Of a DNA stretch of 64,000 nucleotides, positions 47,353-50,946 are shown piece by piece. The notes under the pieces were generated by a model. The model was not told the DNA's origin and did no database searches. It saw nothing but the letters and a program-made list of their open reading frames with translations. Made by a program: the position numbers and the translations under genes. The number at the start of each line of letters is the position of its first letter. The stretch's first letter is position 1. The stretch is from positions 62,001 to 126,000 of the forward strand of contig NZ_FNZR01000004.1 of assembly GCF_900109365.1 (NCBI RefSeq), written 5' to 3'. This stretch comes from Parapedobacter koreensis. GTDB taxonomy: Bacteria; Bacteroidota; Bacteroidia; Sphingobacteriales; Sphingobacteriaceae.

Positions 47353-48009
47353 ATGCGAATACTTATCGTGACAGATGAAACCGGTCTTGGCTGGTTCGTC
47401 AAACAACAGTTGACCGAAAACTTTACTTGCAAGGTACGTATAGCCGAGAATAATAGCGAAGCCCGGGCAATCATGCCTGAATTTTTGCCGCAGCTCTTGC
47501 TTTGCGATGTGGATTTAAACGGCGTGGGGGATGGAATGGAATGGATAAGGGAATTGCAATATTCCTATCGTTTTGAAGTGATTTTGGTGACGCCATATTG
47601 CTTGAACACGGGCATTCTGCGTGCAACCGAAATACAACCGGCGAATTATTTATTCAAACCGCTAAACCCGTGCAACATTTTTGCCGCAATCAAGCTCGTC
47701 GAACCCCGTATTGCCGCTGATCAGCTGGGGCAGGCACATGATGGTGCTGTATCACGCCCCCCTACGCCACTGAACGCAACGGATCTCAAAGTAATCCGGC
47801 TGATTCTTGAACGAAAAACAACAAACGAAATTTCCGAGGCCCTTTTCCTGAGCCCATATACCGTTAAAAACCACCGGCATAACATTTGCCGTAAGCTGGG
47901 CCTGAAAGCAGAGAACAACGCGTTACTAAAATGGGCGCTGAAAAACGAAGCCAGGATAGCGGATTACCACCAGCCTCCCGCTTGGTCGCCGCCTGTGGCG
48001 GAATGCTGA
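47353..48009 (+). CDS. Response regulator with LuxR-type HTH
   Basis: A 218-residue regulator with an N-terminal receiver domain and a C-terminal LuxR/GerE helix-turn-helix. Receiver residues: D8-E9, likely phosphoacceptor D52 (LLLCDVDLNG), T80 and K102 (FKPLNP), so it can probably be phosphorylated, although the acidic pair is DE. The HTH spans about 142-197 (TTNEISEALFLSPYTVKNHRHNICRKLGLK). No histidine kinase is adjacent. Its last 46 bases overlap the convergent bactofilin gene, so it may be tied to that morphogenesis operon; this is inference from position. Confidence 0.9.
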   Translation: MRILIVTDETGLGWFVKQQLTENFTCKVRIAENNSEARAIMPEFLPQLLLCDVDLNGVGDGMEWIRELQYSYRFEVILVTPYCLNTGILRATEIQPANYLFKPLNPCNIFAAIKLVEPRIAADQLGQAHDGAVSRPPTPLNATDLKVIRLILERKTTNEISEALFLSPYTVKNHRHNICRKLGLKAENNALLKWALKNEARIADYHQPPAWSPPVAEC

Positions 48010-48632
48010 TCGGGGGCTGTAGGCGGTTTTGTCGCGCCCGTACTTTTCAGTGCCTGATTGTTGACGTTGTTTTTACCCGGTGTCTTGCTGTGATTAGTTT
48101 TACCCGGTGTTTTGCGCACCTCATTCAAGGCTGAAGGTGACATTGCAGCCGGCACCTCTATCGGTTCAATGGCAGGCGTGTAGCCATTGCCCAACAACTT
48201 TTCGGCTAAGCGTATTTTCTCAGCCAGCAAGCTTGCCGGGGCTTCATCGATCACCGACATGGTGCCATTGATGATGGCACCGGATTCGATAGTCGTGGAT
48301 TTTGCAGCAACGGCACCTTCGATGATGGCCGTTGAAGCAATCAATAGGTTTCCTGTACAGGTAATATTGCCCGTTACCCGTCCTCTAATTACACCTTCGG
48401 AAGAAACGATCGCACCTGAAATATACGCATTTGTCGCTACGGTAGCCACTTCGCGGACGTAAAAATTGCCTTGCCTTTTATTGACAAGGATCATTGACGT
48501 CAGGGAAATAGTGTCTTGTTCGGTGACAATTATTTCATTTTGCTGGGGCTCTTGCGCTTCCGACGTACTTTTTTTAAATGCTTTTTTCTTAAAGAAATCA
48601 ATCAATCTAATAGGTTTTTGTTTCCTCGTCAT
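47964..48632 (-). CDS. Bactofilin-family cytoskeletal protein 2 (long C-terminal tail)
   Basis: A 222-residue bactofilin. The beta-helical core is at about 55-130, with regular turns (AYISGAIVSSEGVIRGRVTGNI, LLIASTAIIEGAVAAKSTTIESGAIINGTM). Before it a basic amphipathic stretch (LIDFFKKKAFKK, 10-21) could bind membrane. After it an Ala/Pro/Thr-rich, probably disordered tail of about 90 residues contains a repeated KTPGK. The ATG at 48632 overlaps the end of the actin-like gene by 26 bases, so it is last in the M23-bactofilin-actin operon. Longer and more decorated than bactofilin 1; the two probably co-polymerise or have different membrane roles. Confidence 0.9.
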   Translation of the reverse strand: MTRKQKPIRLIDFFKKKAFKKSTSEAQEPQQNEIIVTEQDTISLTSMILVNKRQGNFYVREVATVATNAYISGAIVSSEGVIRGRVTGNITCTGNLLIASTAIIEGAVAAKSTTIESGAIINGTMSVIDEAPASLLAEKIRLAEKLLGNGYTPAIEPIEVPAAMSPSALNEVRKTPGKTNHSKTPGKNNVNNQALKSTGATKPPTAPDQHSATGGDQAGGWW

Positions 48633-49641
48633 CAAAATTAGTCACAATCGTGGTAGCATTCCCGATGTCAATTCCAACGGCTGACTTACGTTTTCCATGG
48701 GCGACACGCAGCGAATTGAGTGCATAGCCCGTACTGGCGAGGGTTTCGGGATTATCCAATACTTCCAATTGGGCAATGCCTTCAAACTCATTGCGGAAAC
48801 AATCAATCAAGTCTTGGTAATACATTGCGCCGCCACAGAGGTAAATCCGGTTGGTCTTCATCAGGTTGGCATCGGTAATGACATTCCTTAAGTTGGGTGA
48901 AATCACCTCGTTGTAATAGGTCTGTATCGCATTTCTGCGTATTTCCCGTAAATCGATGTTTTGGCGGTTTAGGTATACGTACCCGCGTTGGAAGGCGTCG
49001 TCAAATAAGTGTGCATTCCTGAATTCCAGGTAATATTTGCTTCTTAACTCATTGATGAGGATATTGACCGCGTAGCGGATACCGTGTGTACTGACCATGG
49101 TTTGCTCAATGATGCCGGAATCCGTGCTTAAGATGGATTCGAAGGTACCAAAGCCGCAGCTCAGTACGAAAAAACTGCCTGTCGCTTGTGTTTCGCCTTT
49201 TCGTATGCCGATAGTACAACCTACGATTTCCGGGATGACATCCACGTTCTGCACTTCCAATACTGCTTTTTTCTTGCCGCCATTATTGAAGGTAGACGCA
49301 TCAAAATCGAGCAGGTGTGTTTGCTTGAAAAAAGCGGCGGCTTTTTCTTTGTAAATATGGTATGTAGAATAGGGAAAGCCTGTAGTGACGGTAATGGGCT
49401 GTTCCACCGCGCTTTGCACCAAAATAAGCGCCGCCTTGCCGAGTAATTGATAATCGGTATCGTCGGGAGAAGAATTTATGATCTTATGGGGTGATTGCCC
49501 CTCATTCAACGCTAAATCACCACAAATGTACCATTTGTCATTGTGCAAAATCTTGAGTCCATGCAACAGGTCTTTTGAAGTATTCGTAAGGACAGTGTTG
49601 TTGTTTTCTACTAAACTGGAAAATGATTGTATTGAATACAT
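48607..49641 (-). CDS. Actin/ParM-fold ATPase with C-terminal phosphate-1 motif (apparent circular permutation)
   Basis: A 344-residue protein I assign to the actin-like ATPase fold. In order it shows: a ParM-like edge region (KWYICGDLALNEG 36-48; ITVTTGFPYSTYHIYKEK 83-100), a phosphate-2 region (FFVLSCGFGTFESIL 157-171), an adenosine motif (IYLCGGAMYYQDLI 266-279) and, at the very end, a phosphate-1 motif (AVGIDIGNATTIV 321-333). In normal actins and ParM the phosphate-1 motif is N-terminal. An in-frame stop (49663-49665) just upstream of the ATG rules out a missed N-terminal copy. The phosphate-2 aspartate is S161, so hydrolysis may be slow or absent, while D325 of phosphate 1 is kept. Part of the operon with two bactofilins and an M23 peptidase. 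Confidence 0.8.
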   Translation of the reverse strand: MYSIQSFSSLVENNNTVLTNTSKDLLHGLKILHNDKWYICGDLALNEGQSPHKIINSSPDDTDYQLLGKAALILVQSAVEQPITVTTGFPYSTYHIYKEKAAAFFKQTHLLDFDASTFNNGGKKKAVLEVQNVDVIPEIVGCTIGIRKGETQATGSFFVLSCGFGTFESILSTDSGIIEQTMVSTHGIRYAVNILINELRSKYYLEFRNAHLFDDAFQRGYVYLNRQNIDLREIRRNAIQTYYNEVISPNLRNVITDANLMKTNRIYLCGGAMYYQDLIDCFRNEFEGIAQLEVLDNPETLASTGYALNSLRVAHGKRKSAVGIDIGNATTIVTNFDDEETKTY

Positions 49642-49698
49642 AGTGAATGAATTTGAATGTTTCTATTTCATGTTTATACTTGGCATTGGCCAACGGGC

Positions 49699-50094
49699 TT
49701 ACTCCGAATCCATGGAGACGTGGCCCATAACGATTTTCCCATCATAAACAGCTCCCCGTTCAACTGCTAGGATTTGTGTGCTGAGCTTACCGCTTACTTT
49801 GCCGGAATTCTTGATTTCTATGGAGTCCGTAGCGGAAACGTCGCCATTGATATGGCCAAAAATAATGACCGTTTTGGCTTTTACATTTCCATTAATTACG
49901 CCGGACTCACCAATAATTAAACTTCCGGCTTCGACGACATCACCCATGAGCGTGCCTTCGACCCGGATGGCATATGCGTGATTGATGTTTCCATGAATCA
50001 CACAATCTTTGCCAATAAGTGTCGGTATTGTTTGCTCGGCGCTACTTTTGTTGCGCTTATTTGCCAATTTTGCAGCCATCAACTCATTACTCAT
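49699..50094 (-). CDS. Bactofilin-family cytoskeletal protein 1
   Basis: A 131-residue bactofilin, the normal compact size. The core is about 24-120, with repeating beta-helix turns (TLIGKDCVIHGNINHAYAI, GTLMGDVVEAGSLIIGESGVINGNV, TVIIFGHINGDV, SGKLSTQI). A short basic N-terminal tail (KLANKRNKSS) may bind membrane. It begins 6 bp after the M23 peptidase gene and is followed after 57 bp by the actin-like gene. Established pairing: bactofilins position M23 peptidases to shape cells, as with CcmA and its peptidases. Confidence 0.95.
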   Translation of the reverse strand: MSNELMAAKLANKRNKSSAEQTIPTLIGKDCVIHGNINHAYAIRVEGTLMGDVVEAGSLIIGESGVINGNVKAKTVIIFGHINGDVSATDSIEIKNSGKVSGKLSTQILAVERGAVYDGKIVMGHVSMDSE

Positions 50095-50100
50095 CGTGCG

Positions 50101-50946
50101 CTAATCTAAACGTAGAAAATTAATGGGATTGATGGGCTTTCCGTTTTTTCTTACTTCGTAATGGAGATGGCTACCCGTTGAGCGTCCGGTTGATCCGACT
50201 TGGCCAATCACCTGACCCGCTACTATTTTTTCGCCTTCTTTTACCAGGCACTTCGATAGGTGTCCGTATAGGGTTTCGTACCCGTTTTTATGCTTGAGCT
50301 GGATACAAATACCGTAACCGCCATTCCGGCCGGCATAGGTGACTTCGCCACTGGCGGTACTCCGTACCAAGTCTCCTTTTCTTCCCCTGAAATCAATGCC
50401 GGCATGAAATTCACCCCCACCCCCGTGGAACGGATTGGATCGGTATCCGTAAGCAGATGTCAGCTCCGGTTTTGCGGGAAAGCCGGTGGGTGTATAGGTG
50501 AGTCCTTCGAATACCTGCTCTAAGTACTGATCATAGAGGCTATAATATTCAAGGGGAGCAAGCCTCAATTCCTTATGCTCATCGCCACCCACCGCATCCT
50601 GGGTGAAGCCTTTTACCCCTCTTTTTTTCAGGTATTCGTTTATTTTATAAAGTTTGGCCTCAATGCGTTGTACATAGTCTTTGGCATCCAGCGTGTCGGT
50701 AGGCTTGGGCAGTTGCTGTTGCAGATCGCGCACCGTTGAAACTAATGAAATACGCTCCTGCTCGCGCAGCTTGGCGGAAGTATAAAGCGTAGCGCAAACG
50801 GTAATCAATACGACCAGGACAAATGCTAACAGCCCAATATAATATTTGAGATTATAAATATGCGGGGAAGAAATGTTGATGGATCGGCTTTGTCCTTTTT
50901 TGGGATCGACGATAATGACAGTACATTTAGTTTTGGTTGATGCCAT
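50101..50946 (-). CDS. Membrane-anchored M23 peptidoglycan peptidase
   Basis: A 281-residue cell-wall endopeptidase. A cytoplasmic N-terminus (about 1-34) is followed by a TM helix (about 35-57), a short coiled coil (about 60-110) and the M23/LytM domain (about 158-277). The Zn and catalytic residues are intact: HAGIDF (H181, D185), GHL (H229) and the terminal HLH (H260, H262). It is therefore likely active rather than a scaffold. First gene of the operon that continues with bactofilin 1. The same TM-anchored M23 type is known to work with bactofilins. Confidence 0.95.
   Translation of the reverse strand: MASTKTKCTVIIVDPKKGQSRSINISSPHIYNLKYYIGLLAFVLVVLITVCATLYTSAKLREQERISLVSTVRDLQQQLPKPTDTLDAKDYVQRIEAKLYKINEYLKKRGVKGFTQDAVGGDEHKELRLAPLEYYSLYDQYLEQVFEGLTYTPTGFPAKPELTSAYGYRSNPFHGGGGEFHAGIDFRGRKGDLVRSTASGEVTYAGRNGGYGICIQLKHKNGYETLYGHLSKCLVKEGEKIVAGQVIGQVGSTGRSTGSHLHYEVRKNGKPINPINFLRLD

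Follow-up and report, generated by a model that had tools for sequence, protein, structure and literature searches.

Introduction

The tail of FtsZ meets FtsA and the tail of ParR meets ParM, and the locus described here resembles both pairs in that an actin-family protein has, encoded beside it, a C-terminal tail whose short end is conserved. It differs from them in that the tail, which has WW, WY or W as its end, belongs to a bactofilin or a response regulator, and in that its docking is inferred. The actin-family protein itself is most similar to the ParM/StbA and ALP family (PF17989; Ta0583, pCBH ParM, Dh-cParM1), with a profile match over nearly the whole chain and with the adenosine GG and the best fold matches in common. 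It departs from that family in carrying phosphate 1 at the C-terminus, in the replacement of the phosphate-2 Asp, mostly by Ser, in having Glu where nine aligned canonical relatives have Gln, and in being chromosomal with a bactofilin as its neighbor. The BeeR proteins, bacterial actins of Verrucomicrobiota, are likewise a recently described family of unknown function; they differ, according to the accessible part of that report, in being nearest to MamK and in having an N-terminal extension (PMC11929497).

Bactofilins are known to pair with M23 peptidases, as in BacA-LmdC of Hyphomonas and Rhodospirillum (PMC10945521); in the portion of that work available to us, actin figures only as MreB and not as a gene of the cluster. 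In the window (the whole stretch of Parapedobacter koreensis DNA analyzed here, 64,000 nucleotides long), a bactofilin also adjoins an M23 peptidase, and here the pair is joined by another bactofilin and by an actin-like protein. Neither a permuted actin nor an actin-bactofilin pairing is described among the matches listed for the open-licence full-text literature (titles and abstract starts), an absence that is not proof in either case. An earlier note on this DNA had known of no permuted cytoskeletal actin, and none came to light among those matches. The string "permut" does not occur in the main text, insofar as it was available, of a paper on chromosomal ParMs (PMC12270681), and "actin" does not occur in the text of PMC12667903.

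Results

Genes and motifs of the locus

The window sits in a 5.5 Mb genome. Its relevant genes lie in a row on the minus strand, in the order M23 peptidase, bactofilin A, actin, bactofilin B:

50101..50946, minus strand: M23 peptidase, adjoining bactofilin A (PF01551, E 1.8e-35)
49699..50094, minus strand: bactofilin A, upstream of actin, with a non-aromatic end (PF04519, E 1.3e-24, 86.7 bits)
48607..49641, minus strand: circularly permuted actin-like (ParM/ALP-type) protein of 344 aa (ORF, Pfam, hhalign, AF2)
49228..49230, minus strand: codon of Glu138, at the invariant-Gln position of nine canonical relatives
49129..49173, minus strand: phosphate 2 segment FFVLSCGFGTFESIL, residues 157-171, with Ser161 in place of the canonical Asp
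48805..48846, minus strand: adenosine motif IYLCGGAMYYQDLI, residues 266-279
48643..48681, minus strand: phosphate 1 AVGIDIGNATTIV, residues 321-333, near the C-terminus
47964..48605, minus strand: bactofilin B, the downstream partner, start unsettled (PF04519, E 1.8e-12, 47.8 bits)
47967..47972, minus strand: WW that ends bactofilin B, preceded by a poorly conserved tail; a proposed docking peptide

The actin frame opens with ATG at 49641 and closes with TAG at 48609-48607. Its motifs run from phosphate 2 through adenosine to phosphate 1, at the positions that the earlier note had claimed for them. That note had also held that an in-frame stop excludes an earlier start and that the next gene is in another frame, and both statements are correct: the TAG at 49663-49665 precedes the ATG by seven codons, and the bactofilin A stop (49699-49701) is in a different frame across a gap of 57 nt, so that no room is left for an N-terminal phosphate 1.

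Pfam ALP_N (PF17989) matches actin residues 7-141 with 42.6 bits (cut-off 26.3; E 9.1e-11) over model positions 21-148 of 148. Because the match begins at position 21, the N-terminus of the actin lacks a counterpart to model positions 1-20. Thirteen of 15 family members scanned gave a match (E<=0.01). A PF17989 search of the window's genome was empty; it missed the window actin gene itself and is for that reason not counted as absence. A role as a stand-in for MreB was rejected, since the genome encodes its own MreB apart from the permuted actin (contig C14, E 2.0e-130). The genome also encodes a paralogue of the actin with 38% identity (L002), and PADLOC returned zero matches.

Bactofilin B could begin at TTG 48605, 1 nt past the actin stop, which agrees with how several homologues begin, namely with hydrophobic residues followed by lysines; a 26-nt overlap with actin would result from the first ATG (48632). 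The automatic ORF call (47964-48635) opens at TTG 48635, and the homologues suggest TTG 48605. Both bactofilins of the window exceed the Pfam cut-off for PF04519 (27.9 bits).

Profile comparisons and predicted structure

The earlier note proposed a circular permutation in which joining the C- to the N-terminus restores the usual order. Using hhalign, we aligned a profile of 15 permuted members, either in native order (A3) or with the C-terminal segment put first (A4), to nine canonical ParM/StbA-type proteins (A5). The native profile aligned from 5-310 to 27-323 (score 178.3, E 1.1e-24) and left canonical columns 1-26 unaligned; the rotated one aligned from 2-333 to 5-323 (score 202.2, E 2.8e-28), a rise in score upon re-permutation that agrees with the proposal. 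When the alignment was rotated in steps of 12 columns, and column by column from 300 onward, scores were 104-172 for first residues 12-271 and 192 at 283-298, reached an optimum of about 202 at residues 307-317, and from 327 on were 178, the native value. Sequence-profile searches of the PDB found Hsp70 and ParM with similar scores in both orders (best E 0.0004 native, 0.00066 rotated) and did not separate them, and single-sequence phmmer against the PDB gave nothing useful.

Given the window protein plus seven close relatives (65-88% identity), AF2 reached a pLDDT of only 42.8. The alignment that we accepted combined the close sequences with nine canonical viral ALPs from which phosphate 1 had been trimmed; because it was cut beforehand, the canonical rows could not guide the C-terminal hairpin. 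The resulting model (pLDDT 79.0, pTM 0.84) is actin-like, with predicted strands at 321-326 and 331-336 that form a C-terminal hairpin at the phosphate-1 motif (mean pLDDT 83 for residues 321-330 and 78 for 331-340). The structure prediction that the earlier note had asked for, made here without nucleotide, supports its interpretation. Foldseek places Ta0583, pCBH ParM, pSK41 ParM and Dh-cParM1 as the best PDB matches of the model (E 7.9e-14 to 5.0e-13), with a probability of 1.00 to Ta0583 and the ParMs; BeeR ranks far lower (8r2n, E 2.7e-8). That the hairpin sits in the active site is inferred from the strand prediction and the overall fold of a nucleotide-free model.

Distribution and conservation of the permuted order

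Relatives were sought in genomes of Bacteroidota only, where, in the genomes sampled, they are distributed patchily: a family match is present in 5 of 9 genomes of the genus, in 18/201 of the family sample (G118 and G128 as remnants only), in 17/300 of the order sample and in 24/395 of the phylum sample (G674 as a fragment at a contig end only). The last three samples overlap; the 71 hits from loci reduce to 55 distinct ones, and to 52 after three short sequences (the remnants and the contig-end fragment) are left out. An exact short-peptide scan of all genome contigs, which picks up close relatives only, found eight loci, all with Bacteroidota titles.

We observe the same motif order in every one of these 52 full-length sequences; a search for such homologues across Bacteroidota was among the checks that the earlier note had named. 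GxDxGN falls within the last 70 residues of all 52, and G323, D325, G327 and N328 of phosphate 1 are all present and C-terminal. On the sequences, this C-terminal position exceeds chance. A loose pattern, D.G[NSTGYF], does occur in the first 45 residues of 4/52 members, each time at the loop preceding the strand that corresponds to YICG of the window protein; by eye, it is no phosphate-1 motif. Every full-length family match in the 201-, 300- and 395-genome samples spans the profile in native order, and the case named as a refutation, that homologues carry phosphate 1 at the N-terminus and the gene is frameshifted here, does not arise in those samples. Nor is the rotated segment free to drift: against the homologue of Parapedobacter indicus, which is 88% identical, pN/pS is 0.069/0.779 for the whole gene and 0.071/0.621 for residues 318-336, so the C-terminal segment is under purifying selection.

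Taken with the rotation-scan optimum at the predicted breakpoint and the predicted actin-like fold with its C-terminal hairpin, the order conserved in 52/52 supports the claim that this actin-like protein is circularly permuted, phosphate 1 having moved from the N- to the C-terminus. The support comes from sequence comparison and a model.

The remaining motifs also set the family apart. E138 and the adenosine GG are invariant across the 52 permuted members, and position 161, that of the canonical phosphate-2 Asp, is S in 49, G in two, N in one and D in none (0/52); among the canonical relatives aligned, nine in all from plasmids and phages, phosphate 2 has D (9/9) and the E138 position has Q. 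The earlier note is silent on this loss of Asp, as it is on the bactofilin partners and the aromatic tail described below.

The paralogue in the window's genome belongs to a clade (L002, L004-L007, L018, L045; support 100/100) in which the C-terminus extends beyond phosphate 1, several members ending near FL or FM, and in which a downstream bactofilin is absent in the four loci examined (L093, L094, L098, L099).

Neighboring genes

Of 46 loci examined, 43 remain once L083 and L084 (duplicates of L026 and L024) and L029 (short downstream) are set aside. Bactofilins were detected with an HMM built from the neighborhood's own bactofilins, the window's two being confirmed by Pfam. A same-strand bactofilin lies within 300 nt downstream of actin in 26/43 distinct loci and within 1.3 kb in 30/43. 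The 13 loci in which none was found within 1.3 kb comprise four of a glycosyltransferase type (L091, L095-097), four of a solitary type (L093, L094, L098, L099, with a divergent upstream bactofilin in L098) and five others (L104, L111, L112, L118, L120). An M23 gene is within 500 nt in only 11/43, four of them divergent. Among 11 genomes tested for bactofilin number, the five with a linked actin have 2-3 and the six without have 0-1.

By eye, the start of several downstream bactofilins, with hydrophobic residues followed by lysines, is similar to MFSKQAKS, a bactofilin membrane peptide published in the part of that source available (PMC12448750). The bactofilins of L100, L103 and L116 do not have such a start.

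Bactofilin-linked members occur in GTDB families f1, f8, f17, f22, f24, f35 and f36, a count of seven that leaves out L061 and L071 (bactofilin label assumed), as well as in Dysgonomonas and Massilibacteroides. The genes of the latter two nest in the tree among those of Parapedobacter and Sphingobacterium (100/99), which suggests, on sequence grounds, horizontal transfer. These loci (L027 and L028, L030: two copies in Dysgonomonas mossii and a Massilibacteroides MAG) read bactofilin A, actin, bactofilin B, and an M23 gene was not found in them.

Other arrangements were seen at loci without a downstream bactofilin. In L091 (2253-9544), and likewise in L095-L097, an operon encodes a long-tailed, response-regulator-like protein ending KRWW, the permuted actin and then the products of three more genes, the first a protein that matches HEAT only weakly (below cut-off) and the others a glycosyltransferase of family 2 and a TPR/YaiO beta-barrel protein; these Pfam assignments come from L091 only. 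The actin of this type is apparently tied to polysaccharide synthesis or export. In L104 (3308-7027) and L118 (3255-6956), in neither of which a bactofilin was found, actin is preceded by a protein of about 1,235 aa, which in L104 has pentapeptide repeats (Pfam).

The aromatic tail end and its loss with the actin

All 26 adjacent downstream bactofilins are observed to end in an aromatic residue (21 W, 3 Y, 2 F), behind tails that are poorly conserved: 12 end in WW, three in WY, nine otherwise in W and two in F. Such an end is found in 0/12 upstream or divergent bactofilins; it is absent from those of L105-107, 1.2 kb away, and the L113 bactofilin, 1 kb away, ends FF. As a control, 319 other neighbor ORFs (>=100 aa, called greedily and counting the duplicates L083 and L084) contain seven that end in W and 35 that end in W, Y or F; without four KRWW proteins the counts are 3/315 and 31/315. 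Those four are the product of the gene before actin in each glycosyltransferase-type locus (4/4). The response-regulator domain is confirmed by Pfam in L091, with which the others cluster, and the frame in L097 is split in two.

Tail end and actin were also lost together. A bactofilin-B profile was searched over the 201 family genomes, and only copies that scored more than 90 bits were counted. Where a genome has a bactofilin-linked actin (11 genomes), 12/12 copies end WW or WY; in eight genomes of genus g21 without a full-length actin, 0/8 have an open frame with an aromatic end (Fisher 7.9e-6, uncorrected for relatedness). The count leaves out another bactofilin B fragment, which G152 has at a contig end. 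In four of the eight (G118, G128, G138, G148) there are stop codons inside the match, which indicates that bactofilin B is itself decaying there; in G118 the match gets to the profile end only behind four stops. The joint loss is an observation that may amount to one or two events, because the eight genomes all belong to one genus.

Short remnants of a permuted actin with a similar internal deletion were seen at L019, L020, L022 and L141 (G118, G128). What is left in G118 and G128 is a frame of 98 codons that fuses actin residues 1-34 to about 275-336, and in G118 it is located on a different contig from the bactofilin B locus. A tblastn search of the eight actin-less loci with four actins matched only the G128 remnant.

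Discussion

Several other explanations deserve weighing. To an artefact (a frameshift, a mis-called start or a decayed gene) we give practically no credence: nothing in the window gene speaks for it, decayed versions being found only elsewhere (L019, L020, L022), and the identical order in 52/52 full-length sequences, the purifying selection and the stop immediately upstream speak against it, so that the homologues refute this reading for the window gene. The protein might instead be a chromosomal ParM-type DNA segregation protein that is permuted by happenstance. Its nearest profile relatives are indeed ParM/StbA partition proteins, its paralogue L002 matches PHROG 691 "partition protein" (E 1.7e-9), and chromosomal ParMs have been published (PMC12270681, a source available in part). 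We nevertheless judge this quite improbable. The recurrent neighbor is a bactofilin, and inspection of the neighborhoods, without a ParR profile, turned up no small gene like parR; compared with ParMRC, the window offers bactofilins and an M23 peptidase as neighbors and only 57 nt upstream for parC, a distant parC not having been searched for. Moreover, tblastn with the window protein and L002 yielded only partial matches, in two plasmid records and in one phage represented by two records, and three family queries gave zero confirmed relatives in viral contigs. Plasmid partition, replacement of MreB and a frameshift are all less likely than the explanation that we prefer.

Two further readings concern how actin and tail might work. 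The protein could be a non-polymerising ATP-binding adaptor, similar to FtsA or PilM, that senses nucleotide and tethers the bactofilin tail without any filament. The lack of the phosphate-2 Asp in 52/52 would fit such an adaptor, as would a short-peptide partner, which FtsA also has; yet the closest folds are Ta0583 and the ParM-type proteins, of which the ParMs polymerise, and a large inserted domain is not visible in the profile alignment. We regard the adaptor as doubtful without dismissing it. Alternatively, the aromatic end could be a membrane, stability or other signal with no relation to actin, given that terminal tryptophans may lie at membrane surfaces and that the eight actin-less cases come from a single, partly decayed genus. 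This seems unlikely to us, as the tail end is absent where actin is absent and recurs on an unrelated partner that adjoins actin.

We consider it somewhat probable, instead, that the window encodes a permuted ParM/ALP actin-like ATPase partnered by a dedicated bactofilin B, which docks on it through the aromatic tail; ATPase activity, filaments and docking are inferred. Probably, a single ancestral permutation took the first beta-hairpin, which holds phosphate 1, away from the N-terminus and placed it at the C-terminus, so that the new chain ends fall just past this hairpin. The permuted chain should still fold as one actin-like domain and, we infer, bind nucleotide. With phosphate 1 intact, Glu at the catalytic position and the phosphate-2 Asp absent, ATP hydrolysis is inferred to be slow, and the actin would then be a stable filament or a slow switch.

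In most members that have the neighbor, we expect actin to work with its dedicated bactofilin B, a linkage that is itself observed at the level of the genes. Bactofilin B would polymerise, probably on the membrane through its N-terminal hydrophobic and lysine-bearing peptide (the membrane-bound state is inferred), and its C-terminal tail would offer a terminal WW, WY or W for docking on actin, an inference by analogy. As the pair adjoins a bactofilin A-M23 pair of a kind known from wall remodelling, it likely serves in the window to control peptidoglycan and cell shape locally, again by inference. For the family as a whole a wall-remodelling output is a weaker inference, since an M23 gene is near so few of the loci (11/43). 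In one side branch, the same tail ending is found on the response-regulator-like protein of the glycosyltransferase operon. More tentative, and perhaps wrong, is a broader picture of a cytoskeleton with two components, the permuted actin and a membrane-bound bactofilin, which an aromatic peptide at the tail end would couple physically, the same peptide having been re-used on a response regulator. In this picture the hairpin with phosphate 1, being attached through a short C-terminal linker, could conceivably even be donated to the adjacent subunit, in which case ATP sites would be complete only in the filament.

These data point to an undescribed two-part bacterial skeleton, made of a permuted actin and a bactofilin with a tryptophan tail. 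The family shows that evolution can relocate the chain ends of an actin, for which we found no natural case in the open-licence full-text literature, and it offers a natural way to learn where fold and filament rely on the order of the chain. Through it, actin and bactofilin cytoskeletons, which are usually studied separately, are linked by a short tail that can be tested in the laboratory.
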